64,000 nucleotides of DNA from positions 310,001 to 374,000 of the forward strand of contig NZ_CP037895.1 of NCBI RefSeq assembly GCF_004634385.1, read 5' to 3'. Shown here piece after piece: positions 4,068-38,682 of this stretch. Source of the DNA: Thermaerobacter sp. FW80. Lineage in GTDB: Bacteria > Bacillota > Sulfobacillia > Thermaerobacterales > Thermaerobacteraceae. Both the position numbers and the translations under genes were made by a program. The notes beneath the pieces are model-generated. The model did not search any database. It was given only the letters and a program-made list of their open reading frames with translations, and was not told the DNA's origin. Every line of letters starts with the position of its first letter. Positions within the stretch are counted from its first letter, which is position 1.

Positions 4068-5153
4068 GAAGAGGTCGGGGTCGGCACCGGACGGGTCGGA
4101 CGACGCCCGCGGCTGCTCCGCCTCAACCGGGGTGCCGGGTTCGTCCTCGGCGGCGAGATCGGGGTCGACTTCCTGAACGTCACGGTGCTGGACCTGACGG
4201 GCCAGGTGGTCTGGAAGGTGCGGGAACAGGCCGACAACCGGCGCCGGCCCGCGGAGACCATGGCGCGGCTGGCCGAGCTCATGGCGGCTGCCGCCGCGCG
4301 CCAGCGGGACACCCCGCGGGGCCTGCTGGGCATCGGCATCGGCGTGCCCGGGCTGGTGGACCAGGAGCGGGGCGTGTTGCTCTACGCGCCCAACCTGCGG
4401 TGGGAAGACGTGGCGGTCGGCCCCTACTTCGCCGAGCGCTTCGGTGTCCCCGTCCAGGTGGAGAACGAGGCCAATGCCGGGGCGATGGCCGAGGCGTGGT
4501 GCGGCGTCGCGCGCGGCACCCGGCACGCGGTCTACTACAGCGTCGGCATCGGCGTCGGCACGGGGATCATCATCCAGGGGGAGCTGGTCCGCGGGAGCGG
4601 CGGGATGGCGGGGGAGATCGGCCACACCACCGTCGACGTCACGGGTCCGCGGTGCGCGTGCGGCAACCGCGGCTGCCTCGAGGTCTACGCCTCGGAGGCG
4701 GCGCTGCGGCGGTTCTACCAGCAGCTGGCGGGGCCGCAGGCCGCGGATCGCGGCCGCCATCCCCGCGGCGAGGAGGCGGCCGATGGCCGGCCGAACGGGG
4801 CAGCGGGGACGGACGACACCCCGCCCAGCACCCACGACATCGTCGAGGCGGCCAAGGGGGGCGACGCGGCGGCCACCGCGGCCCTGAACCGCGTCGCCAC
4901 CTACCTCGGGGTGAGCGTCGCCAACGCCATCAACACCTTCAATCCGGACATGGTGATCATCGGGGGGCCGCTGGTGGAGGCGGGCCGGTTCATCCTGGAG
5001 CCGATCCGGCAGATCGCCACGGAACGCGCCCTCCCGTTGATGCAGCGCCGGACCAGGATCGTGCTGGCCGAGTGCGGCCCCGACGCCTGCGCCATCGGCG
5101 CCGGGGTCATGGCCCTGCAGGACCTGTTCCGGGTACGGGTCGTGACGGGGTGA
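4068..5153 (+). pseudogene. ROK/XylR-type sugar regulator lacking its HTH domain
   Basis: From about 4068 the frame reads EEVGVGTGRVGRRPRLLRLN then GAGFVLGGEIGVDFLNVTVL, which is the point where XylR-type ROK repressors pass from the winged helix to the sugar-kinase-like domain. The ROK zinc motif CACGNRGCLE and the phosphate loops GIGVPGLVD and GIGVGTGIII are present. About 75 N-terminal residues with the DNA-binding helices are missing. The first ATG is at 4185, inside the ATPase fold. A 35-residue low-complexity insert sits near 4735-4830. In the intact ancestor this would have repressed the divergent xylA; the shared promoter region is gone. Confidence 0.82.
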
Positions 5154-25486: not shown

Positions 25487-25528
25487 CGGCTCGGCCACGC
25501 CGCACCGCAGCAACGGTGTCGAGCCGTC
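25485..25528 (+). terminator. Possible terminator after the MFS gene
   Basis: GACGGCTCG pairs with CGAGCCGTC across a 26-base loop and is followed by TTCTG. The left arm starts at the stop codon of the MFS gene. Confidence 0.45.
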
Positions 25529-25772: not shown

Positions 25773-26984
25773 TTAACCGGCCGTGCCCGCGCTCTCTTCG
25801 GCCGGTTCGTCCGCCACCGCATCGCCGGGGGCCGCCGCCATCGGCCCTGCCACCGGCCGGCGCGCCGCCGCGCCCGGCAGAGCCACGCGGCTGCCGTCCG
25901 ACAACCGGAACAGGTGGAGGCGCGACACCGGCAGCCGGACGCCCACCGCCTCCCCCTCGACCACGGCGGCGTCCGCCGGCACCAGGGCCTGCAGCCGCAA
26001 GCCCGCGCCGGCCGCGCCATCCCCGGCGCCGGCCGGCATCGAGGTCACGCTGCGACCGGCTTCCACCGTGACCAGCTTCTCGTGGCCGAGGAGCTCGATC
26101 ATGGTCACCCGGCCGTCCAGGTGCCCGCGACCGGGCGCCACCAGCTGCACGTGGTGCGGCCGGATGCCGATGGCCACCTCGTCGTCCCGCGCCGCCGCCG
26201 GCAGCGGCAGGTACACGGGCAGGCCGTCCACCTGCAGGCGCGTCCCGCTCACCCGACCCTGCAGCCAGTTCATGGGCGGGTGGCCGATGAAGGAGGCGGT
26301 GAAGCGGTTCGGCGGCGTCTGGTAGAGCTCGTACGGGGTGCCCTGGGCGACGCAGCGGCCCGCGTTCATCAGCACGACCCAGTCGGCGATGGTCATCGCC
26401 TCGGTCTGGTCATGGGTGACCAGGACCGCGGTCACGCCCAGCTCCCGCTGGATGCGCCGGATCTCGGCGCGCATGGCCTGGCGCAGCTGGGCGTCCAGGT
26501 TCGAGAGCGGCTCGTCCAACAGGAGCAGGGCCGGCCGCTTGACCAGGGCGCGAGCCAGCGCCACCCGCTGCTGCTGGCCGCCCGAGAGCTGTTCCGGCCG
26601 CCGGTCCAGCAGCGCCTCGACCCGCACGAGCTCCGCCATCTCGTGGACGCGGCGCCGGATCTCCGCCTCGGGGAGCCGCTGCATCCGCAGCGGGAAGGCG
26701 ATGTTCTCGAACACCGTCATGTGCGGGTAGAGGGCGTAGCTCTGGAAGACCATGCCCACGTTGCGCCGCTGGGGCGGCACGTCGTTGACCCGCACGTCGT
26801 CGAAGTAGATGTCGCCCGCCGTCGGCCGCAGCACCCCGGCCAGCATGTACAGGGTGGTGGACTTGCCGCAGCCGGACGGCCCCAAAAGCGCCACCAGCCG
26901 ACCGGGCTCCAGCTCCAGGGTCAAGCCGTCGACGGCCGTCACCGCACCGAAGCGCTTCGTCACGCCGTCCAGCCGGATCCTCAC
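25773..26984 (-). CDS. Sugar ABC transporter ATPase (MsmK/UgpC type)
   Basis: A 403-residue CUT1-type ATPase. Walker A is GPSGCGKSTTLYMLAG, followed by the Q-loop GMVFQSYALYPHMTVFENIA, signature LSGGQQQRVALARALVKRP, Walker B LLLLDEPLSNLD and the switch His in VLVTHDQTEAMTIAD. From about residue 235 come the MOP/TOBE regulatory strands (AIGIRPHHVQL, HLDGRVTMIELLGHEKLVT). The end is a disordered Ala-rich tail containing DEPA, encoded by the motif element at 25802. GTG 26984 overlaps the permease stop (GTGA). ATPases of this group often serve several CUT1 transporters, which may explain why the system at 60.9-64 kb has none. Confidence 0.95.
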   Translation of the reverse strand: MRIRLDGVTKRFGAVTAVDGLTLELEPGRLVALLGPSGCGKSTTLYMLAGVLRPTAGDIYFDDVRVNDVPPQRRNVGMVFQSYALYPHMTVFENIAFPLRMQRLPEAEIRRRVHEMAELVRVEALLDRRPEQLSGGQQQRVALARALVKRPALLLLDEPLSNLDAQLRQAMRAEIRRIQRELGVTAVLVTHDQTEAMTIADWVVLMNAGRCVAQGTPYELYQTPPNRFTASFIGHPPMNWLQGRVSGTRLQVDGLPVYLPLPAAARDDEVAIGIRPHHVQLVAPGRGHLDGRVTMIELLGHEKLVTVEAGRSVTSMPAGAGDGAAGAGLRLQALVPADAAVVEGEAVGVRLPVSRLHLFRLSDGSRVALPGAAARRPVAGPMAAAPGDAVADEPAEESAGTAG

Positions 26985-27817
26985 CGCTTCACACCCCCCG
27001 TGTACAGCACCATCAGGTAGCGCTGCAGGAACAGGTAGACCAGCATGACCGGGATCATGTAGAAGACGGCCACGGCCGTCACGGTGCCGTACCGGGCCAC
27101 GTCGGCCTGGGAGAGCAGCGACCCCAGGTACACCGGCAGGGTCTGGACGTCGGCGCCCGGCGCCAGCACGTAGGGCAGCAGGAACTCGCTCCACCCGGAC
27201 AGGAAGGCGAAGACCGCCGACGCCATCAGGCCCGGCCGGATGATGGGCAGCACCACCCGGCACCACGTGGTCAGGCGGCTGGCGCCATCGAGCAGCGCCG
27301 CCATCTCGTGGTCCCAGGACACCTGGTCGTAGAAGCCCTTGAGCACCCAGACGTGGAAGGGCAGCTCCAGGGCGATCTTGGCCAGCACCACGCCCGCCAG
27401 GGTGTCATAGAGGCCCAGCTGCCGCAGCAGCAGGAACAGCGCGACCAGCAGGGTGATCCCCGGGAACGCGTGGAGGACGATGAGCATCGCCAGCCACAGC
27501 CGCCGCCCCGGCACGGAGAGGCGCGCCAGGGCGTAGGCAGCCGTGCTGGCCAGGAGGACCTCCCCCACGGCCACGAGCGCGGCGAAGAGCAACGTGTTCA
27601 GGGTCAGCTGGGCGATGTTGGGCCCGAAGGGATCGGGCTGCCAAAGGAACGACCAGTTCTCCAGGGTGAATCCCAGCGGCCGGAAGCCCTCCATCCCGTC
27701 GCTCCAGGACGCCAGCAGTAGCCACGCATAGAGCAGCAGCACCGGCAGCGTGACGGGCACCAGCAACAGCCACGCCCACCGCGCCGGCCGCTGGGTCTCG
27801 CTCAGGCTGCCGAGCAC
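26981..27817 (-). CDS. Sugar ABC permease, MalG type
   Basis: A 278-residue inner permease with six membrane segments. The EAA loop, which contacts the ATPase, reads EMAALLDGASRLTTWCRVVL PIIRPGL in two adjacent parts, and the C-terminal segment is VYLFLQRYLMVLYTGGVKR, a usual MalG-type end. It is the third gene of the operon between the MalF-type permease and the ATPase, whose GTG start overlaps its stop. The sugar cannot be told from sequence. Confidence 0.93.
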   Translation of the reverse strand: MLGSLSETQRPARWAWLLLVPVTLPVLLLYAWLLLASWSDGMEGFRPLGFTLENWSFLWQPDPFGPNIAQLTLNTLLFAALVAVGEVLLASTAAYALARLSVPGRRLWLAMLIVLHAFPGITLLVALFLLLRQLGLYDTLAGVVLAKIALELPFHVWVLKGFYDQVSWDHEMAALLDGASRLTTWCRVVLPIIRPGLMASAVFAFLSGWSEFLLPYVLAPGADVQTLPVYLGSLLSQADVARYGTVTAVAVFYMIPVMLVYLFLQRYLMVLYTGGVKR

Positions 27818-27919
27818 GCCGCCACCTCCCTTCCCGCGATCCGCGCCGCGATCCGCTCACCTGAGGGCTCGATCCCCCTCGCGCTCCACCCGCCTCGATG
27901 CCCGCGAGCCGCGCCGCGC

Positions 27920-28909
27920 TCAGCTCACCTCGATGCGCGGCCGCTGGGTCAGCTGCCGGAAGTTGAAGAAGCGCAGGTAGAGCAGCGATGCCACCAGCCC
28001 GATGACCACCAGCACCGTGGCCAGGGCGGCACCGAGGCCGTACTGGGCGTTGCCGAAGTAGTTGGACAGCGCCGTGTGGAAGGCGTAGAGCGCCCAGACC
28101 TCGGTGGTGTAGAAGCCCGGCCCGCCATCGGTGGCCAGCAGGATGTACTCGTAGGAAGCCAGCAGCGACAGGGTCTGGTACGCGGCGACGAACAGCGCCG
28201 GCCACCGCAGCTGGGGCAGCACCACCCGCCGCACCAGCGCCCAGGTGCCCGCGCCGTCCACCTGGGCCGCGATCAGCTGTTCCCGCGGGATGGCCTGGAT
28301 GGCGGCGCTGAAGATGATCATCCCCATGGACGCCCCGACGAAGCCGTTGATGGCGATGACCATGGGCCACGGGTGCTCGTAGAGCCAGTTGCCGCCCGCC
28401 GGCAGGCCCAGCGCGGCCAGCACCTGGTTGATCACGCCGTAGGGCGGCTCGGCCGCGAAGTACTTCCACATCAAGACGTAGACCACCGACGGCGTGATAC
28501 GGGGCAACAGCCACACCGCCCGGAAGAACCCGCCCCAGCGCTGGGGCAGGAACGCCGTGGCCAGCGCCAGCACCAACGCCAGCCCGACGTTGAACAGCGT
28601 CAGGGTGGCGCCCACGTAGAGCAGCGTGTTGCGCAACACCAGGCCCGCCACCGGGTCGGTGAGGATGCGCCGGTAGTTCTCCAGGCCGACCCAGCGGAAA
28701 TCCCGGAGCCCCGTGACCACGCTGACGTCGGTCAGGCTCAGGATCACCGTCAGCACCGCCGGGATCAGGAAGAACACGGCCACCACCAGCGCGAAGGGCA
28801 GGAGGAACCCTGCCCCCAGCCGCCACGGCGCCGCCGGCCGGGCGGCCGCGAGGACCGCGGCCGCCCGGCCATGCGACGCCGCGCCCGTCCCTGCACCCGA
28901 TTCACTCAC
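27920..28909 (-). CDS. Sugar ABC permease, MalF type
   Basis: A 329-residue permease with six or more membrane segments: FLLPFALVVAVFFLIPAVLT near the N-terminus, GFFRAVWLLPRITPSVVYVL, and the EAA loop EQLIAAQVDGAGTWALVRRV followed by VLPQL. GTG 28909 is preceded by GGGAGG and is preferred over a longer frame reaching 29137, which adds only Ala/Gly/Pro-rich sequence. It follows the binding protein gene and precedes the MalG-type permease by about 100 bp. Confidence 0.93.
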   Translation of the reverse strand: MSESGAGTGAASHGRAAAVLAAARPAAPWRLGAGFLLPFALVVAVFFLIPAVLTVILSLTDVSVVTGLRDFRWVGLENYRRILTDPVAGLVLRNTLLYVGATLTLFNVGLALVLALATAFLPQRWGGFFRAVWLLPRITPSVVYVLMWKYFAAEPPYGVINQVLAALGLPAGGNWLYEHPWPMVIAINGFVGASMGMIIFSAAIQAIPREQLIAAQVDGAGTWALVRRVVLPQLRWPALFVAAYQTLSLLASYEYILLATDGGPGFYTTEVWALYAFHTALSNYFGNAQYGLGAALATVLVVIGLVASLLYLRFFNFRQLTQRPRIEVS

Positions 28910-29133
28910 GGGGCCTCCCTGGCCGACCCCAGGGAGCGCCCTCGCCGCGGCGTCGCCGCTCCGGCCCGGTGCCGCCGCGAGGCCCGCCGCCCCGGGCCGC
29001 GCCTCGCGACCCGGGTCCGGGATGGGCCCTTCGCACGCCGTGGCCGCAGCGACCCCGCTCCCCGGCCCGCCGGCGGCGCCGGCCGCGGCCCCGGCCCCGC
29101 CGGCGGCCGGTTCGACCGCCCGCCGAACCCGGC

Positions 29134-30600
29134 TCACCGGATGATCACCTCGTCCCGGAGCTGCGACTGCAGCTGCTGGACCACCGTGTCGACGGCCTGC
29201 TCGGGCGTCATCTGCCCGGCGACGACCGCCGACAGGCCGCGGTAGATGGCCTGGTCGTAGTTGCCGAACTGCTCGTGCAGCGGGACGAACCCGGCGTACT
29301 CGACCATGTACGCGAGGTCACCCAGCAGCCGGTTCTCCTTGTACGCCGGCTGGTCGAGCTGCGACTTCATGATCGCCAGGTGGTTGCTCTCCACCGCGTG
29401 CCGCGTGTTGAACTCGGGATTCGTCGCCTCCAGGATCAGCCGCGCCGCCAGCTCGGGGTGCTGCGAGTACTTCGTCACCATGTACACCAGCGGGTGCGAG
29501 AGGGTGACCCCCGGCTTGCCCTTCTCGCCCGCCGGCAGCAGCGCGTAGCCCAGATCCTGGACGTCGGCGTCGCTCAGGCCGTACTGGTCCTGCCACTCGG
29601 CCACCTGCCAGGAGCCGCCGACCCAGAGGCCCACCTGCTTGCTGGTCACCGTCCGGTGCCAGATGGACCAGTCGGTCCCCAGCAGCGACGGCTTGAGCAC
29701 GCCCAGCTCGCGCGCCCGTGCGAAGAACTGGTACTCCTTCAGGAGCGCCTCCTTGTCCAGCACCAGCTTGCCCGTCTCGGGATCCTGCATCGCGCCGCCG
29801 TAGGCCAGGTAGAACATGTAGAAGTCCACACCCGCCTGCGGCCGCGTCCAGAAGCCCTGCCCCTCCGGCACGATGCCGCGATCCTGCAGCTGCTTGGCCA
29901 GGTCGAGCAGGTCATCCAGCGTGAACTCGCCCTTCTCGATGCGCTCCGGCAGCTGGGCGATCTGCTCGTCGGTCCATCCCAGCTGCTTGAGGTGCGACTT
30001 CCAGAAGTAGAGCGGCCGCGCCTCGGTATCCTGCGGGATGCCCCAGATCTTCCCGTCCAGCGTCACGGACTCCCACAGCGTCGGGAACACGTCCTGGTAC
30101 ACCGGGCTGTCCTTGACGTACTCGTCCAGCGGGATGATGTGCCCCGCCGCGGCCCACGGCGCCACGTCCTCGTGGCCGCTGAGGATGATGTCCGGCGCCT
30201 TCCCGGCCTCCGCCGCCAGGATGAAGCGCTGCTTATACTCGTCCCACGGCCGGTCCTCGTGGGTGCCTTCCAGCTGGACGCGGACGTTGGCGCCCTCCTG
30301 CTCGAGCTTCTGGTTGAGCCGATCGACGGCCTCCTTCAGGTTGTCGAACCGCCAGTGCTCCGTGGGCTTGCCGATGGTCATGGCGCGCAGGGTGACGGTC
30401 TGGACGCCCTGCTCCCCGCCGGACGAACCGGCACCGCCCGCCTCCTGGTCGCCGGCCGGCGCCTGGCTACCCTGGCCGCCGCAACCGGCCAGGAGCACCA
30501 GCGACGCCACGAGCACGGCAGCCAGCGCCCGCCACGGCGCGCGCCCGCCCACGACGCGCAGCGTCCTCCGCGACCTCCGCTCCGTCCACCGACCCACCAC
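29134..30600 (-). CDS. Sugar ABC transporter substrate-binding lipoprotein
   Basis: A family 1 extracellular binding protein, 488 residues, with a lipoprotein signal (ALAAVLVASLVLLAGC, Cys about residue 40) and a Gly/Ala linker. The mature part has VTLRAMTIGKPTEHWRFDNL, then RFILAAEAGKAPDIILSGHE and DVAPWAAAGHIIPLDEYVKD, the usual first-lobe pattern of CUT1 binding proteins, and VGLWVGGSWQVAEWQDQYGL in the hinge region. It heads the operon SBP-MalF-MalG-ATPase. The nearest good promoter is the CIRCE-overlapped one 600 bp upstream; the leader between holds no convincing gene. Confidence 0.95.
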   Translation of the reverse strand: MVGRWTERRSRRTLRVVGGRAPWRALAAVLVASLVLLAGCGGQGSQAPAGDQEAGGAGSSGGEQGVQTVTLRAMTIGKPTEHWRFDNLKEAVDRLNQKLEQEGANVRVQLEGTHEDRPWDEYKQRFILAAEAGKAPDIILSGHEDVAPWAAAGHIIPLDEYVKDSPVYQDVFPTLWESVTLDGKIWGIPQDTEARPLYFWKSHLKQLGWTDEQIAQLPERIEKGEFTLDDLLDLAKQLQDRGIVPEGQGFWTRPQAGVDFYMFYLAYGGAMQDPETGKLVLDKEALLKEYQFFARARELGVLKPSLLGTDWSIWHRTVTSKQVGLWVGGSWQVAEWQDQYGLSDADVQDLGYALLPAGEKGKPGVTLSHPLVYMVTKYSQHPELAARLILEATNPEFNTRHAVESNHLAIMKSQLDQPAYKENRLLGDLAYMVEYAGFVPLHEQFGNYDQAIYRGLSAVVAGQMTPEQAVDTVVQQLQSQLRDEVIIR

Positions 30601-31211
30601 GAACGGTCACCTCCTGTTCCTGCCGACCCGTGCCTTCCGGTCCAGTCCGCAAGGACCCGCGCAGGCGCGCCTGGCTACCCCGCGGGGGTGATCCGCCGCG
30701 GCTTTGCGCTCGATGGGTTCGCCATCGGTTCGGCGATGAGGCGATGAACGGCTTGGCGGGGAGACCCGGCCAACGAGCCCCGCACGGAACGGGCGCCTCG
30801 CACCCGCCCCGGCGCACGGGTCCCTCTCGCCCGGCATGACGAACCGGCCGCATCTGCGCACGCGATCCGCCGCGAGCCGTCGTCCCCCGTCGCGCGGCTT
30901 CGGTCACGACGGGGTGGACCGCCACCGGTTGCGCGACAGGCCGTAGCCGGACATGCCACGCCCGGTCGGCTCGCATGTCGACCCTCTGCCGGTTGGCCCC
31001 GTCCAGGTGGCCGGTTCGTCGGCCGGTTCGGGATGCGATGTGCGCGCTGCGATCGACCCAGCGGGTCGATCCGTTCGGGACGACCTCGCGGCCGCCCACG
31101 CCTGGCGCACCGGTCCCCGGGACGCGCCGGGAACCGGCCGCCGACGAATCTCCGTCAATGACCGCTACAGGAAGGCTCGTGAACGTGACCGGCCTGTCCA
31201 CGACCGGTCTG
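30601..31211. other. Long leader without a supported gene
   Basis: About 600 bp between the sugar operon and the promoter at 31250-31279. All frames give Arg/Gly/Pro-rich translations with no recognisable domain. Two motif elements occur (30838, 31011); the second is followed at once by a partial direct copy (GGCCGGTTCGGG). Confidence 0.5.
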
Positions 31212-31238
31212 TTAGCAGACGAGCGCGACGAGTGCTAA
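31212..31238 (-). promoter_or_regulatory. CIRCE-like HrcA operator
   Basis: On the minus strand TTAGCACTC-N9-GTCTGCTAA. The CIRCE consensus is TTAGCACTC-N9-GAGTGCTAA, so the left arm is perfect, the spacing exact, and the right arm differs at two bases. It begins about 5 bp after the predicted start of transcription of the adjoining promoter, the usual place for HrcA repression. Confidence 0.7.
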
Positions 31239-31249
31239 CAAGCAATTGG

Positions 31250-31279
31250 AATATATCCTCAAGCTAAACGGGATGTCAA
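31250..31279 (-). promoter_or_regulatory. Strong σA-type promoter reading towards the sugar operon
   Basis: On the minus strand TTGACA (31279-31274), 17-18 bp, then ATATAT/TATATT (31256-31250). The surrounding 100 bp is notably AT-rich for this window. It reads leftwards into the 600-bp leader and then the sugar ABC operon. Confidence 0.75.
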
Positions 31280-31443
31280 GTTAAGGCACTCCCTGGCGGA
31301 TCGCGATCCGGGCCGTGACGGGGGACGAGCCGCGCCACGCATTGGCGTCGGGCTCGATCATCTGCGTTGGGCCCGAACGGAAAGGCGGCGCGGTGGTGTC
31401 AATCGGGTGATGACCCGATGCCGCCGGCCGGCCCCGTCACCGT

Positions 31444-31788
31444 ATGATGGTCGTCGTGGTGCCTACGGACAAGCAACCCAACCATCGCAGCGACCGTCGC
31501 AGCCCCGGCCACAAACCCCCGAGTTGGGCAGCGGCTGAATTGCGCAGGCAGATCCGGCACCAGCTCCGGCGATTGAAGGCCCTGCGCGATGCCATGGGTG
31601 CCGAAGGAGACCGCGAGCTCCTGGCCGCGATTCACGATGAGCTCGAGGTCCTGGCTCGTCTGTTGCGCACCCTGGAGATCTTGGAAGCGTTGGAGGGAAA
31701 ACGTGGAGGCAAGGAGCCAGGGGACGAACCGGCCGCTGGCGGTCCGCCCCCGCACGCCGACGACGGTTCCGACCAACGGGCGGATTGA
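31444..31788 (+). CDS. Small helical hypothetical protein
   Basis: A 114-residue product, polar at both ends with a strongly helical middle: AAELRRQIRHQLRRLKALRD and LLAAIHDELEVLARLLRTLE, possibly a coiled coil or helical hairpin. I do not recognise it. The start is uncertain (ATG 31444 or 31447; no good ribosome site). Its 3' part overlaps the start of the Spo0E-like gene in another frame, which suggests coupling if both are real. Confidence 0.45.
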   Translation: MMVVVVPTDKQPNHRSDRRSPGHKPPSWAAAELRRQIRHQLRRLKALRDAMGAEGDRELLAAIHDELEVLARLLRTLEILEALEGKRGGKEPGDEPAAGGPPPHADDGSDQRAD

Positions 31789-32044
31789 GGGCGGGCAGAA
31801 TGAGGGCGATGGCCGTTCCGATGCCGGCCACCGCGCGAGCACCGGCCACCGGGGGGACGGGACACCCCCGTGGGGTCAGCTGGCGCGGGAGGTCGAGGAC
31901 CTGCGGCGCGCCCTCATGAGCGCCGTCCAAGCGCCCACCGATCTCCGCCGGGAAGACGTCCTGGCCCTCAGCCAACGGCTCGACGATCTGATCGTCCGCG
32001 CCCAGCAGGCCCTGGCCGAACGGCGTCCTGTCCGCCAAGGGTGA
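31703..32044 (+). CDS. Spo0E-like aspartyl-phosphate phosphatase family protein
   Basis: A 113-residue product. Its C-terminal 45 residues match the Spo0E family: LAREVEDLRRALMSAV (helix 1), then LRREDVLALSQRLDDLIVRA with the SxxLD signature whose Asp is needed for phosphatase activity. Spo0E proteins dephosphorylate Spo0A~P or related response regulators and delay sporulation. GTG 31703 has GGAGGG 6 bases upstream; the N-terminal 55 residues are Gly/Thr/Arg-rich and may be untranslated if a later start is used. The motif element at 31723 lies in this part. Confidence 0.72.
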   Translation: MEARSQGTNRPLAVRPRTPTTVPTNGRIEGGQNEGDGRSDAGHRASTGHRGDGTPPWGQLAREVEDLRRALMSAVQAPTDLRREDVLALSQRLDDLIVRAQQALAERRPVRQG

Positions 32045-32163
32045 CGGCCGACGGCCCCAGGCCTCCTTCCGTTCGCGTTCCGCCCATCGCCTTCCGGGGG
32101 CCACGCGGCCCGGCAGGGACATGGCGAGGATCGCCGTATTCTACCCACTGTGAGATGAGAGGC

Positions 32164-32256
32164 CGCGGGGGGAGTCCGGGTCAACCGGGCTGAGAGGGCG
32201 ACTGATCGGCGTCGCCGACCCCGATCACCGGATCCGGGTCATGCCGGCGTCGGGAG
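32164..32256 (+). ncRNA. TPP riboswitch of tenA, variant core
   Basis: CTGAGAGGGCG followed by GACCCCGATCACCGGATCC, GGGTCATGCCGGCG and TCGGGAG has the order and spacing of a thi box. It departs from consensus at positions usually well kept: CCGGA for CCTGA, TCATGCC for TAATGCC and TCGGGA for TAGGGA. Its position 120 bp before tenA supports the assignment. Confidence 0.78.
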
Positions 32257-32375
32257 CGCGGTCCAAGGACCGGGCCGTTGGATGCGGCCGGGCATGCCTC
32301 CTGCCGCCGAGCTGCTCGGCGGCCTCTTTCGTTCTCCGCGGTGCTTCCACGCCACGGACGGGGGAGGGAGACGCC

Positions 32376-33062
32376 ATGCCGGCGAGCAGGGGCACGGCCG
32401 AGCCGTTTCACCAGTGGCTCGACGCCCAGACGCGTACCCTTTGGGAGGCCATCTTCCAGCTCCCGTTTCTCCAGGAGCTGGCCGCCGGAACGCTGGCCAG
32501 GGATCGTTTCGCCTACTTCCTCGCCCAAGACGTCCTCTACCTCGAGCAATTTGCCAAGGTGCTGGCCCGCGGGGCCACCCTGGCAGACACCCCGAAGACG
32601 CGCGAGATGTTCCTCCGCCACGCGGCCAACGTCGCCCGGGTGGAAGAACGGCTGCACGCGGAACTGGCGTCGCGTCTCGGGTTGGACTGGGACGCTGTGC
32701 GTCAGAAGGAGCCCGCGCCGGTCACCGTCGCTTACACCGATCACCTGCTCCGAGTCGCCCACACGGGCGGACTCAGCGAGCTGGTCGCGGCGGTGCTGCC
32801 CTGCTACTGGGTCTATGCCCGGGTCGGGGAGCGCCTGGCGAATCGGCTGCCGGAGGACGAGATCTACCGGCGCTGGATCCTGACCTACGCCGATCGCGAT
32901 TTCCACCGCAGCGTCGACGAACAACTGAGGCTGATCGATCGGCTTGCGACGGCCGCCGGCAGCAATGAACGGGAGCGCATGGAGCGGTGGTTCGCCCGCA
33001 GTCTCCGTTACGAGTGGATGTTCTGGGACCAGGCCTACCGCGATCTTGCCTGGCCGGTCTGA
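32376..33062 (+). CDS. tenA: TenA-family aminopyrimidine aminohydrolase / thiaminase II
   Basis: Salvages degraded thiamine by releasing HMP from amino-HMP or formyl-HMP. The 228-residue all-helical protein has TLWEAIFQLPFLQELAAGTL, FAYFLAQDVLYLEQFAKVLA (with the Asp that holds the pyrimidine), the active-site LPCYWVYARVGERLA with its Cys, WILTYADRDFHRSVDEQ, and the C-terminal RYEWMFWDQAYRD. ATG 32376 follows GGGGAGGGAG. It is controlled by its own TPP riboswitch and is 9 kb from the thiD operon. Confidence 0.95.
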   Translation: MPASRGTAEPFHQWLDAQTRTLWEAIFQLPFLQELAAGTLARDRFAYFLAQDVLYLEQFAKVLARGATLADTPKTREMFLRHAANVARVEERLHAELASRLGLDWDAVRQKEPAPVTVAYTDHLLRVAHTGGLSELVAAVLPCYWVYARVGERLANRLPEDEIYRRWILTYADRDFHRSVDEQLRLIDRLATAAGSNERERMERWFARSLRYEWMFWDQAYRDLAWPV

Positions 33063-33092
33063 AGGGGTTCGATAGGTTGGTGAGGCCGCACC

Positions 33093-33461
33093 GTGACCGC
33101 GTTCTGGGCCGCCTTGCGCTTTCTGACGGTCCTGCCTGCGCCCGGCCGGCGCCCCTTGCAGGCACCCGCGCTGGGTCGAGCGGTGGGGTACTTCCCCCTG
33201 GTCGGCGTGATCCTCGGAGGACTCCTCGCAGCCGCCAACGCCGCCGTGACAGAGGTCATCCCCCCCGATGTCCGGGCCGTCCTCGTGGTCGGACTGGGAC
33301 TCGCGTTGACCGGCGGCCTCCACTTCGACGGGTGGTTGGACACGTGCGACGGCTTGTTCGGAGGACACACCCCGGAGGAACGCCTCCGCATCATGCGGGA
33401 TGAGCACGTGGGCGCCTTCGGCGTCGCTGGAGGCGGCCTCCTCCTCCTCGCGAAATCGTAG
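33093..33461 (+). pseudogene. cobS: Cobalamin synthase (CobS), N-terminal fragment cut by an inserted cassette
   Basis: The frame begins MTAFWAALRFLTVLPAP and has GRAVGYFPLVGVILGGLLAA, the metal-binding HFDGWLDTCDGLFGG and RLRIMRDEHVGAFGVAGGG. This is the first ~120 of about 250 residues of adenosylcobinamide-GDP ribazoletransferase. After LLLLAK the frame hits a stop and base composition drops abruptly, so the rest of the gene was replaced. The catalytic region is present but half the membrane helices are missing; activity is unlikely. Confidence 0.88.
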
Positions 33462-33570
33462 ATCGTTGTGGCATGTTGCTAGGTTTCAGGTACAATTCCC
33501 ATAGCGCTCCAACCTACCGTCACGGATACAGGCGTTGTCAATGATGCCAAGCAAAGGAGGGCCAACCCCG

Positions 33571-34512
33571 GTGGGGAGAGTTCCTATCGTTGATACTTTG
33601 CAACGTGTTCCCGGCGGTATGATGCTGATCCCTCTGTTAGCCGGTTCGGTAGTGCGAACTTTCTGGCCTGGTTTCCTTGAGCTTGGATCCTTCACCACGG
33701 CGCTGTTTAAAGACGGAGCGCTGCCCCTCATCGCCCTGCTTATCCTCGCCACCGGCGCTCAAATCAATGTCCGACAGAGCGGGGCTGTACTAGCCAAGAC
33801 GGGCGTCTTGTTGCTGGCCAAGACGGTATTGCCAGCTCTGCTCGTCATTCTTTATGGTTATCTGTTCGGACGAGACGGTATCCTCGGCATTTCGCTTCTG
33901 GCGGCAATGATTGCGTTCATCAACTCCAACGGTGGGCTGTGGCTGGCATTGGCGACCCAGTACGGGGATGACGAGGACCGTGGAGCGTACATCGCAAGTG
34001 CCCTCAACGACGGTCCCTTCTTCACCCTGCTATTCCTGGGCTTGAGTGGGCTTGGGGCCATTCCGTTCGAGTACATTGTGGCTGCCATCCTTCCGTTTCT
34101 TATCGGGTTCATCCTGGGTAACTTGGATGCAAAGTTTGCGGAGATGATGAAGCCGACTGCCGCTATTACAGTACCGTTTTTCGCCTTTGCCCTGGGCGCC
34201 GGCATCGACCTCCGGTCGCTGGCGGTTGGCGGCGTCACAGGGTTGGTGCTGGGCCTTCTAGTCGCGTTTATAACGGGTGCGCTGGGATACTGGGCTTACC
34301 GGTACCTGCTGCGCGAGCGTAGCGCGGTGGGCTTCGCTGTTGGCACCACGGCAGGAAACTCCGTAGCCACCCCAGCAATCGTGGCCCAGGCGGATCCAAG
34401 CTTCACCCCCTTCGTCTCGGTCGCAACGGCGCAGGTGGCGGTTTCGGTGTTGGTGACGGCCGTCGTGACCCCGCTCATCACCCACTACCTGCACCGTCGG
34501 CTACAGAGCTGA
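33571..34512 (+). CDS. kdgT: 2-keto-3-deoxygluconate permease family transporter
   Basis: A 313-residue KdgT-family proton symporter with about ten membrane segments: QRVPGGMMLIPLLAGSVVRT, LELGSFTTALFKDGALPLIA, LLILATGAQINVRQSG, AMIAFINSNGGLWLALATQY and FAVGTTAGNSVATPAIVAQA are family blocks. GTG 33571 is chosen because AAAGGAGGG lies 9 bases upstream and the product then starts just before the conserved PGGMM. With the next two genes it probably imports a C4 acid sugar such as threonate or erythronate rather than ketodeoxygluconate. Codon use and GC content are visibly lower than in the flanks. Confidence 0.92.
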   Translation: MGRVPIVDTLQRVPGGMMLIPLLAGSVVRTFWPGFLELGSFTTALFKDGALPLIALLILATGAQINVRQSGAVLAKTGVLLLAKTVLPALLVILYGYLFGRDGILGISLLAAMIAFINSNGGLWLALATQYGDDEDRGAYIASALNDGPFFTLLFLGLSGLGAIPFEYIVAAILPFLIGFILGNLDAKFAEMMKPTAAITVPFFAFALGAGIDLRSLAVGGVTGLVLGLLVAFITGALGYWAYRYLLRERSAVGFAVGTTAGNSVATPAIVAQADPSFTPFVSVATAQVAVSVLVTAVVTPLITHYLHRRLQS

Positions 34513-34552
34513 CGACCCAACAGAGGCTTCAGACTGTGAAGAAGGGGTAGCC

Positions 34553-35908
34553 ATGGAAAAGCCGCTGTACGCTGTCATTGCCGATGATCTAACGGGAGCG
34601 GGCGACACTGGCGTTCAATTTGCCCGCGCTGGGTTGCGCACCCGCGCGTTAATCGGAACCTGGTCGGTACATGCGGTTCAAGGAGCGGACGTCGTTGTTA
34701 TCAATACGGAGAGCCGAGCGCTAGAACCAGAGGAAGCCTATGAACGGATTGCCCGCACCGCCGCGGAGCTCCGAGCAGCCGGCGCGATCCCAATCTATAA
34801 GAAGATTGATTCCACGATGCGGGGACCCGTGGGCGCAGAACTCGACGCACTGCTGGATATGTTCGGACTGGACATGGCTATCGTGTGCCCCGCCTTCCCC
34901 GACAACGGCCGCATCCTGATAGGAGGGTACTTGCTCGTAAGCGGTCAGCCCGTTGCCCGGACAGCCATCGGTCGTGACCCTGTCGCGCCGGTCAGGGAAA
35001 GCCACGTGCCGACGTTGCTCGCCTCTCAAACGCGGCGTTCCGTGCGCCATATCGGCCTGCAGGTTGTCGAAGCAGGGGCCGAACGTTTGTGCACTGCCTT
35101 GGGCGCTGCACGCCAGCCTGGAGGTAGCGTGGTGGTCATCGACGCCGTTAGCGACGGGGACTTGGAGGTTATCGTCGAAGCAGCTTCTATGGTGGAAAGC
35201 GGGTCGTTTGTGACCCATGCCGGCTCCGTTGTAAACGGACGGAAGGGTGGGGTCGTGCTGGTTGGCTCGGCGGGCCTGGCACGCCCGTTGGCTCGTCGTC
35301 TGACGGCCGGTCTTCGGCGGCATCCTGGAACGAGTCGGGAAGCTCGGCGCATTGTGTTGGTGGTGGTCGGGTCGGTAAACCCTGTCTCGCGAGAACAGCT
35401 GGCCTGGCTGACCTCCCAGCAGGACACCCTGGTCGTGCACCTGGACGTAAACGCCGCTCTGCAGGGGGGAGACGCATGGCAGCAGGCAAAGCACTCGGTA
35501 CGGCAAGTGGTCGGGCGGGCTGCGACCGAAGGCCGTGTGTTAGTGTTGACCACCCGCGGTGACCCCGCGGACGTTGAAGCCGCGCGCCGTGCTGGCTCGG
35601 CGCACAGCCTGGGCGCAGTGGAAGTAGCTAGGCGTATTGCCGAAGCACTGGCTGAGGTTGCGGCAGGAGCTCTGGATCGGCTGAAGGTGGCTGGAGTCGT
35701 TCTCACCGGTGGCGACACGGCCCGGGCGCTTCTGGACCGCCTTGGGGCAGCTGGCATCGACCTGATTTCGGAGGTTCAACCCGGCATCCCGGCTGGCACG
35801 CTCAATAGCGGCCGGCGGCCCGGGTTGTGGGTAATAACTAAAGCGGGTGGCTTTGGAAGCCGGGAGGCTTTGGCCCTGGCAGTGGAGTATCTCTTGCGTC
35901 TTCCGTGA
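34553..35908 (+). CDS. dtnK: Four-carbon acid sugar kinase (DUF1537)
   Basis: A 451-residue DUF1537 kinase, of the type shown to phosphorylate D-threonate or D-erythronate. The N-terminal substrate domain starts with YAVIADDLTGAGDTGVQFAR and has IPIYKKIDSTMRGPVGAELD; the C-terminal nucleotide domain has VLTGGDTARALLDRLGAAGI and PGLWVITKAGGFGSREALAL. It follows kdgT by 40 bp, and its stop overlaps the GTG start of the dehydrogenase. The symbol is by analogy; D-threonate is the likeliest substrate because the partner is a PdxA2, but erythronate or other acids are possible. Confidence 0.9.
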   Translation: MEKPLYAVIADDLTGAGDTGVQFARAGLRTRALIGTWSVHAVQGADVVVINTESRALEPEEAYERIARTAAELRAAGAIPIYKKIDSTMRGPVGAELDALLDMFGLDMAIVCPAFPDNGRILIGGYLLVSGQPVARTAIGRDPVAPVRESHVPTLLASQTRRSVRHIGLQVVEAGAERLCTALGAARQPGGSVVVIDAVSDGDLEVIVEAASMVESGSFVTHAGSVVNGRKGGVVLVGSAGLARPLARRLTAGLRRHPGTSREARRIVLVVVGSVNPVSREQLAWLTSQQDTLVVHLDVNAALQGGDAWQQAKHSVRQVVGRAATEGRVLVLTTRGDPADVEAARRAGSAHSLGAVEVARRIAEALAEVAAGALDRLKVAGVVLTGGDTARALLDRLGAAGIDLISEVQPGIPAGTLNSGRRPGLWVITKAGGFGSREALALAVEYLLRLP

Positions 35909-36987
35909 CGACCTTCCACCGCGTGGTGTGGGGGGATGCAACCTTGGTGGACAACCGTCCCATTCTGGCCATTACCATGGGCGATGCGGCCGGCATCGGG
36001 CCTGAGATCATCGTTAAGGCGCTCGCTCGGCCGCAGGTACAGGCATTGTGTCGCCCCCTTGTAATCGGCGACGTCGGTATCATCGAGGACCACCTGCGGT
36101 ACTGGAGGGGTAAGGAGAGTGTTGGGCGACCCTCCATTCATGCCACCGCTACCCCCGAGGAGGCAGAGTGGCGTCCTGAGGTCATTAACGTGTTGCAGCC
36201 GGGGCCTCCATTGGGCCGTATTGAACCCGGGAAGCTGTCCCCGGTGGCTGGCCGAGGAGCCGTGAGTTACGTGAAAGCCGCCGTCTCGCTAGCAAAGGAG
36301 CGGCGGGTACAGGGCATTGTCACTGCACCGCTCAATAAAGAGGCCATGCACCGGGCAGGCTTCCACTATCCTGGCCATACAGAACTCCTGGCCAAGGAGT
36401 TTGGGGTGGCGCGCTACTCGTTGGTGTTGACCGCGCGGGGGTTGTTTGTCTTTCACGTAACCACTCACGTATCGCTGCGCCAGGCAATTGATCTTATCAC
36501 GAAGGAGCGAGTGCTTGATCAGATTCGCCTTGCCCACCTATTGGCTGTTGCGCTAGGACAGGCAAGTGAGGTCATTGCGGTAGCAGGCCTCAACCCCCAC
36601 GCCGGTGAGGGCGGGCTCTTCGGCACTGAGGAGCGGGACATCATCAGGCCAGCCGTGGCGGCAGCTTTGGAGGAGGGCATCCCCGTGGAGGGCCCTCTGC
36701 CGGCGGACGTGGTCTTTCCTAAGGCTGCAGCGGGTAGGTACCGGTTTGTAGTAGCGATGTATCACGACCAGGGACATGCTGTTTTCAAGAGCCTTTTCTT
36801 CAACGAGGGTGTCAATATCACGGTTGGTCTACCCGTGATCCGGACTTCCGTGGACCACGGCACGGCGTTCGACATCGCGGGCAAAGGTGTCGCCCGCGAG
36901 GACAGCCTGGTGCACGCCGTCGAGCTGGCCGCCCGCCTTGGCCCCAAGTGGAAGCAGATCTGGCATCAGGTGCAGTCCCTCGTTTAG
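35905..36987 (+). CDS. pdxA2: PdxA2-type 4-phospho-D-threonate dehydrogenase
   Basis: A 360-residue PdxA-family oxidoreductase. The motifs are [40 protein letters not shown] (metal His), [37 protein letters not shown] (metal His) and [20 protein letters not shown]. With DUF1537 kinases, PdxA2 enzymes oxidise and decarboxylate phospho-threonate to dihydroxyacetone phosphate. True PdxA for vitamin B6 is very similar, but the operon with kdgT and dtnK favours the catabolic role. GTG 35905 overlaps the kinase stop. Confidence 0.9.
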
Positions 36988-37719: not shown

Positions 37720-37885
37720 GCCATGGCGGCGGGGAACGAGTCACACCGCCATGGCGGTGCCCTTGCTGGCCTCCGGTCCAGGCGCCACGGCCGTGCACGG
37801 CCTGCTTGACAACACGGACATCGCCCGCTTGATCGTGCAGGCCTTTGGATGGGACGAACCGGCGCGCCATCGCAGCGCTCGCTGA
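37720..37885 (+). pseudogene. Alkaline phosphatase, C-terminal fragment
   Basis: The frame [20 protein letters not shown] then [18 protein letters not shown] and a stop matches the extreme C-terminus of alkaline phosphatases, including the His-Thr of the zinc-binding HT motif and the DNT-IA end. At most 50 of about 450 residues are left. The upstream border runs directly into the cbiB fragment on the other strand, so the two remnants were joined by a deletion. The motif element at 37853 lies in the tail. Confidence 0.72.
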
Positions 37886-37937
37886 ACTGCAGAGTCCCCA
37901 CCATCCGTGGCATCATGGAGGTAACGGCTGCTGCGAG

Positions 37938-38345
37938 GTGAGCCCGTTGGATCGCAGCCAGGATTGGTGGGATGAGGCCCTCGGCGACCTCGCCCACGCC
38001 GAGAGCGACCTGGAACGGGGCTTTTATAATTGGGCCTGCTTTTCGGCCCAACAGGCTGCCGAGAAGGCGGTCAAGGCCGTCTGCCAGAGGTTTGGCGCCG
38101 AGGCGTGGGGTCATTCCGTCCATGCCCTTCTCGACGCCCTCGCGGAGCGGATCCCCGTTCCTGCGGACCTCCGCGATCGTGCCCTGGAGCTCGACAAGGC
38201 GTACATCCCCACGCGATACCCCGATGCCCACCCCACGGGAGCGCCCAGGCGGTTGTACACCGCGTCCGAGGCGAGGAGGATGCTGGGCCATGCGAAAGCC
38301 ATCCTCGACTTCTGTGCGCGTTATCTTCCCGGCCCTGAGTCGTGA
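37938..38345 (+). CDS. HEPN-domain protein, putative toxin of a HEPN/MNT pair
   Basis: A 135-residue HEPN protein: SQDWWDEALGDLAHAESDLE, NWACFSAQQAAEKAVKAVCQ, RFGAEAWGHSVHALLDALAE, and TASEARRMLGHAKAILDFCA. The QQAAEKAVKA helix and GHS(V/L)-LL block are typical of the group. The Arg...His pair of HEPN RNases may be RFGAEAWGH, with 7 residues between, slightly more than the RX4-6H rule. Start GTG 37938, or TTG 37947 with GAGGTGA upstream. It overlaps the nucleotidyltransferase gene by 56 bp. In studied pairs the MNT protein AMPylates and silences the HEPN RNase. Confidence 0.88.
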   Translation: MSPLDRSQDWWDEALGDLAHAESDLERGFYNWACFSAQQAAEKAVKAVCQRFGAEAWGHSVHALLDALAERIPVPADLRDRALELDKAYIPTRYPDAHPTGAPRRLYTASEARRMLGHAKAILDFCARYLPGPES

Positions 38346-38682
38346 AGAGGTCATCCAGCGCATCCGGGACGCGTTGCCCAAGCTCGCGGACCAGCTGCCC
38401 CTTCGGGAGGTCACGCTCTTCGGCTCGTACGCGAGGGGCCGGTTCACGGCGTACAGCGACATCGACCTGCTGGTGATCTACGACGACCCGCCCGTTCCCG
38501 ACGCCTTCCAACGGGTGCGGCGGACCATCCCCCTCCGCGCGCTCGAACCCCACGTCTACACCGTGTCGGAGGCGGCATCCGTCGCATCGGTCCTGGGACG
38601 CATGACGCGGGACGGCGTGGTGCTCCTCGACGCCTCCCGCTCCCGCGCCAGCGGGGGTAGGGTCGAGCGGGCCAGGGTCTGA
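38290..38682 (+). CDS. MNT-type minimal nucleotidyltransferase, putative antitoxin
   Basis: A 130-residue protein with the pol-beta-type signature LFGSYARGRFTAYSDIDLLV (GSxARG then SDID, whose Asp residues bind Mg and ATP). ATG 38290 has AGGAGG 12 bases upstream; GTG 38314 is an alternative. The gene overlaps the HEPN gene at its start and the convergent prpB gene by 127 bp at its end, so the last 42 codons are antisense to the prpB C-terminus. The partner order HEPN then MNT is common for HepT/MntA-like systems. Confidence 0.88.
   Translation: MRKPSSTSVRVIFPALSREEVIQRIRDALPKLADQLPLREVTLFGSYARGRFTAYSDIDLLVIYDDPPVPDAFQRVRRTIPLRALEPHVYTVSEAASVASVLGRMTRDGVVLLDASRSRASGGRVERARV

Follow-up and report, generated by a model that had tools for sequence, protein, structure and literature searches.

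We suggest that a four-gene sugar-type ABC importer operon in Thermaerobacter sp. FW80 is probably driven from a sigma-A-type promoter that carries a CIRCE-like operator for the heat-shock repressor HrcA, and that it would accordingly be induced together with the chaperones on heat. The operator and the compact operon downstream of it (25773-30600, minus strand) lie within the 64,000-nucleotide stretch of DNA analysed here, referred to as the window. The HrcA/CIRCE pair is usually regarded as a near-invariant chaperone switch; an operator kept on an importer across genera and families would mean that the repressor has been recruited to metabolism. From the sequence evidence set out below we infer HrcA as the binder, the direction of control and the induction by heat.

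Promoter, operator and importer operon

On the minus strand, a TTGACA hexamer (31274-31279) and a TATATT hexamer (31250-31255) separated by 18 nt form a promoter (31279-31250) with 11 of 12 consensus bases, the highest scoring of three sigma-70-like matches between positions 25500 and 34000, where shuffled sequence gives a mean of 0.4. Eleven nucleotides beyond the -10 hexamer lies the operator TTAGCACTC-GTCGCGCTC-GTCTGCTAA (31212-31238, minus strand; left arm 31230-31238, right arm 31212-31220), at which a transcript start is plausible. Measured against the CIRCE consensus used for all mismatch counts, TTAGCACTC-N9-GAGTGCTAA, two of the 18 arm bases depart, both in the right arm, and the half-sites read TTAGCA-N15-TGCTAA. 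It is the only site with three or fewer mismatches in the 64-kb window (0.01 expected from shuffles); in simulated sequence with the dinucleotide make-up of the window, such a site arose once in 19.5 million positions, or about 0.05 per Mb. The HrcA-type layout proposed in the earlier note, TTGACA-17/18-TATATT followed by TTAGCACTC-N9-GTCTGCTAA, is confirmed here on the minus strand.

The same note had described a gene-free leader of about 600 bp followed by a sugar ABC operon, and this also holds: the predicted untranslated leader measures 611 nt (30601-31211, minus strand), and no Pfam-matching gene or terminator-like site is present between the operator and the likely start of the solute-binding gene, a GTG at 30600 with AGGAGGT 8 nt before it. 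Neither the length nor the sequence of the leader is conserved. Judged from the best ribosome-binding sites, the corresponding leaders in the five other genomes described below are about 375 nt (G001), 423 nt (G002 and G003), 198 nt (G004) and 144 nt (G014), so that the 611 nt of the window genome represent a local expansion; alignments between genomes hold only at its two extremes, next to the promoter and at the start of the gene. No Rfam family was found in the leader, the search of positions 30400-33600 returning only the TPP riboswitch of tenA.

The first gene of the operon encodes the solute-binding lipoprotein (29134-30600, minus; PF01547, E 1.8e-29), followed on the same strand by a MalF-type permease (27920-29137; PF00528, E 3.1e-12), a MalG-type permease (26981-27817; PF00528, E 5.8e-13) and a MalK/UgpC-like ATPase (25773-26984), the best NCBIfam match of which is UgpC (NF008653) at 370 bits, under the cut-off of 432. 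Nor did the solute-binding protein or either permease attain an NCBIfam equivalog cut-off, and the PDB sequence matches of the importer are scattered over several sugar-binding proteins, none of them specific. At seven distant homologous loci, with solute-binding proteins 37-44% identical to that of the window, the neighbours identified by Pfam are xylose-isomerase-like TIM barrels (G482, G502), a PfkB kinase (G482) and a GDPD enzyme (G361); no CIRCE-like site with three or fewer mismatches occurs in the 1.5-kb flanks of these loci.

Two further features of the window lie on the far side of the promoter. The TPP riboswitch (RF00059, 54.9 bits) precedes a TenA/THI-4 family gene (riboswitch and gene together 32158-33062, plus strand), and a related strain is predicted to need external thiamine (PMC11008173). 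The segment 33093-37870 carries a CobS gene truncated after roughly 115 of the 207 positions of its profile, then a KdgT/sugar-acid kinase/PdxA block (33535-36987) and, on the minus strand, an incomplete CobD/CbiB gene covering positions 109-256 of a 282-position profile. The arrangement resembles an insertion of catabolic genes into a cobalamin cluster; CobS has no match in the three other Thermaerobacter genomes.

Conservation of the operator across genera and families

Searching the solute-binding protein against 154 genomes of the class (E 1e-60 or better) recovered orthologues in six: the window genome (G000) and three others of the genus Thermaerobacter (G001-G003), one from another genus of the same family (G004) and one from another family (G014). 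The five other proteins are 74-91% identical to that of the window, and each of their genomes carries all four operon genes, permeases and ATPase included, in the same order. A scan of named genomes with the same protein gave one locus, on a MAG contig (L036) with the length (12,483) and match position of G004:C232; it was taken to be the same record and is not counted as a seventh genome. In all six, TTGACA stands exactly 41 bases 5' of a CIRCE-like operator with two (G000, G001) or three (G002, G003, G004, G014) mismatches. The left arm matches CIRCE at nine of nine bases and is identical throughout, and the 9-base length of the inner spacer is kept; the right arms, GTCTGCTAA, GCCTGCTAA, ATCTGCTAA (in two genomes), AGCTGCTAA and GGCTGCCAA, retain six or seven of nine consensus bases. 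The -10 hexamer has the same letters in the four Thermaerobacter genomes and reads TAAATT in G004, where the promoter spacer is 17 nt, and TACAGT in G014.

Pairwise footprinting, computed for seven of the 15 possible genome pairs, gave an agreement of 15-17 of 18 positions in the arms, 1-5 of 9 in the inner spacer and 19-43 of 100 in the flanks. One-sided Fisher p values lie between 4e-5 and 7e-8; the seven pairs share lineages and are non-independent. Between the two promoter hexamers, only 4-8 of the 18 spacer positions agree, with the -35 hexamer invariant.

Different genes adjoin the operon upstream in the genomes compared: a Spo0E-like gene in the window, a HEPN/nucleotidyltransferase pair in G001 (identified by Pfam on the homologous pair of the window) and, named by eye, a lumazine-synthase-like gene in G002, an ArsR-like gene in G004 and a gamma-glutamyltransferase-like gene in G014. 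The HEPN/nucleotidyltransferase pair, directly upstream of the operon in G001 (L011, 7496-8246), lies 6 kb away from it in the window (37845-38682, plus strand), and gene order around the operon has therefore been reshuffled. Because the arms have been kept where spacer and flanks have diverged, and because the operator is present in all six genomes despite their differing upstream neighbours, its sequence record indicates an element that is under selection and belongs to the importer operon. Among the matches listed, G082, which belongs to the genus of G014 and is without the solute-binding gene, has two CIRCE-like sites, against three in G014.

HrcA and competing explanations

HrcA is the best candidate for the regulator of the operon on the evidence of gene content and motif. 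The four Thermaerobacter genomes encode a single HrcA each, and the protein is also present in G014; it was not found in G004, a fragmented assembly of 580 contigs. Perfect CIRCEs stand 5' of groES in all five genomes of the family (G000-G004) and 5' of hrcA in G000-G003, with a promoter layout similar to that of the importer in the same genomes. Overall, 15-16 of the 18 arm bases of the importer sites agree with the consensus. All of these sites share one departure, C in place of G at base three of the right arm, which in reverse gives a TTAGCAG half-site; the two inner bases of this arm also drift among them. The same half-site is present in CIRCEs before groES (G066, G068) and before hrcA (G019, G142), as checked by Pfam, so that all four of the contexts examined among the matches listed are chaperone or hrcA loci. 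HrcA control of the importer had been offered in the earlier note; the footprinting, the occurrence of HrcA and perfect CIRCEs in the same genomes and the half-site variant now lend it weight, and we infer, on these grounds, that HrcA is the protein bound. The importer operon is likely to be a new, non-chaperone target of HrcA.

A different reading is that another dimeric regulator, for example one sensing the imported solute, recognises an operator that merely resembles CIRCE, leaving the importer outside the heat-shock regulon. This agrees with the fixed departure of the right arm in six of six genomes, as expected of a distinct motif, and with the matrix scores of the importer sites (16.3-25.3), which all fall under the weakest (25.8) of 60 distinct CIRCEs from the class, these references having been chosen at two or fewer mismatches, a choice that favours high scores. 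Some of the distant homologous operons also adjoin LacI-type genes, as judged by eye. Against it stand the left arm, which is that of CIRCE at every base in all six genomes, the constant length of the 9-base spacer and the finding of the same right-arm departure at chaperone and hrcA loci; nor does any regulator gene common to the six genomes adjoin the operon. A LacI-type operator in the relatives, which the earlier note had set against its own proposal, was not seen, and it is rejected for half of the genomes, as no LacI-domain match exists genome-wide in G001, G002 or G003 (G000, G004 and G014 do encode LacI-domain proteins). A LacI-type regulon would moreover call for a short palindromic operator, and the half-sites here stand 15 bases apart. 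Overall, we consider control by another regulator unlikely, if worth bearing in mind.

The remaining explanations are far less probable. That the promoter originally served a chaperone gene (groES or hsp20) which was then lost here, leaving the importer downstream of a relic, was an alternative raised in the earlier note, and the length of the 611-nt leader, unique to the window genome among the six, would fit such a loss. Synteny across the six genomes with the orthologous operon leads us to reject it: the order of promoter, operator and importer is the same in all of them, with differing genes upstream, leaders as short as 144 nt and no chaperone seen, and the arms are under constraint, unlike those of a relic. 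It is similarly hard to believe that the likeness to CIRCE is a functionless coincidence. The sites are two to three mismatches off the consensus, and G002 has an unconserved two-mismatch site elsewhere, but the simulated frequency of sites with up to three mismatches has to be set against their occurrence at the same promoter position in six of six genomes. Equally improbable, in our view, is an element acting mainly as a 5' stem-loop of the mRNA, in stability or attenuation, rather than as a DNA operator. Both arms are paired in the predicted folds of the G000 and G002 leaders, followed by a GC-rich stem-loop (31187-31209, minus strand, in the predicted mRNA of the window) directly after the operator, and the z-score reaches -4.1 for G002; however, the predicted folds of G001 and G004 leave the arms unpaired, the GC-rich stem-loop is not the same in G001, G004 and G014, the z-scores are weak in four of the five sequences folded and no terminator-like site follows. 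An RNA hairpin at the operator was rejected for this inconsistency among the five sequences.

Proposed mechanism and implications

With GroE keeping it active, HrcA would occupy the operator at normal temperature and restrain the importer promoter. Once GroE is engaged by unfolded protein, or HrcA loses its own activity, the repressor would leave the operator, and the importer would be induced alongside groESL and the hrcA-dnaK operon. The GroE step draws on the titration model for HrcA, and HrcA has also been reported to be able to sense heat itself (PMC8533110). As the right arm is weak in all importer sites, with the half-site reduced to CTGCTAA, repression is predicted to be less tight here, with more leakage, than at the chaperone promoters. 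A tentative extension, possible but one we would hold loosely, is that uptake is coupled to heat shock in a specific sense: through a leaky, half-degenerate CIRCE, HrcA may induce, along with the chaperones, an importer whose solute serves as a thermoprotectant or a fuel, with folding stress gating uptake.

The conservation pattern suggests that, in Thermaerobacter and some of its relatives, heat stress and the uptake of solutes are connected; for thermophiles, this offers a coupling of folding stress to solute uptake that can be tested. The importer operators also form a natural series of weakened sites for measuring the tolerance of HrcA.

CIRCE-like sites were also seen elsewhere. G002 has one, with two mismatches, close to where a different ABC operon ends (C1:2259546-2259572; L090, about 4547-4573); no counterpart was found in the remaining genomes of the genus. 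CIRCEs with zero or one mismatch lie 5' of genes that, by eye, are FmdB-like zinc-ribbon genes (G142, G143), a glycosyltransferase-like gene (G145) and a nucleotidyltransferase-like gene (G028), at loci L113, L121, L124 and L120. Given these zero- or one-mismatch sites, HrcA may have further non-chaperone targets in the class.

Comparison with known systems

The importer operon shares with the class I HrcA/CIRCE regulon (groESL, hrcA-grpE-dnaK-dnaJ) a sigma-A-type promoter and an operator of TTAGCACTC-N9-inverted-arm form at the start point; it differs in having an importer instead of a chaperone downstream and in its right arm, reduced to CTGCTAA. Its genes resemble the MalEFGK and UgpBAEC importers in combining an SBP_bac_1 protein, two BPD_transp_1 permeases and a MalK/UgpC-like ATPase in one operon; unlike those systems, it reaches no NCBIfam equivalog cut-off and no local sugar regulator was seen beside it.

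For the weakened arm, a close parallel is the groESL CIRCE of S. thermophilus, given as TTAGCAGTT-N9-GAGTGCTAA in PMC3192767, which has two changes in one arm and the same TTAGCAG half as the importer sites. In this CIRCE and in those of G066, G068, G019 and G142, the rest of the arm is nearer the consensus, with a chaperone gene or hrcA as the target. By base counts, the departure of the importer right arm (six or seven of nine consensus bases) is within the range of the S. thermophilus groESL element, and the importer operators are weaker than the 60 CIRCEs of the class.

A sugar importer has been predicted to have an HrcA site before, as in the present case: in L. plantarum, a weak predicted HrcA motif (p 1.7e-6) precedes the sorbitol PTS operon. 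The sections of that study dealing with the operon show that loss of hrcA did not clearly derepress it and, in a further difference, give no cross-species footprint (PMC3842655). Derepression of the dpp ABC genes in hrcA mutants of H. pylori is described in PMC6843607. Our search of the open-licence literature turned up no sugar ABC importer under CIRCE control, and the combination of the CIRCE element with non-chaperone targets gave no match there. The kind of system described here is thus already known, while the importer as its target, and the conservation of that arrangement, appear to be new.
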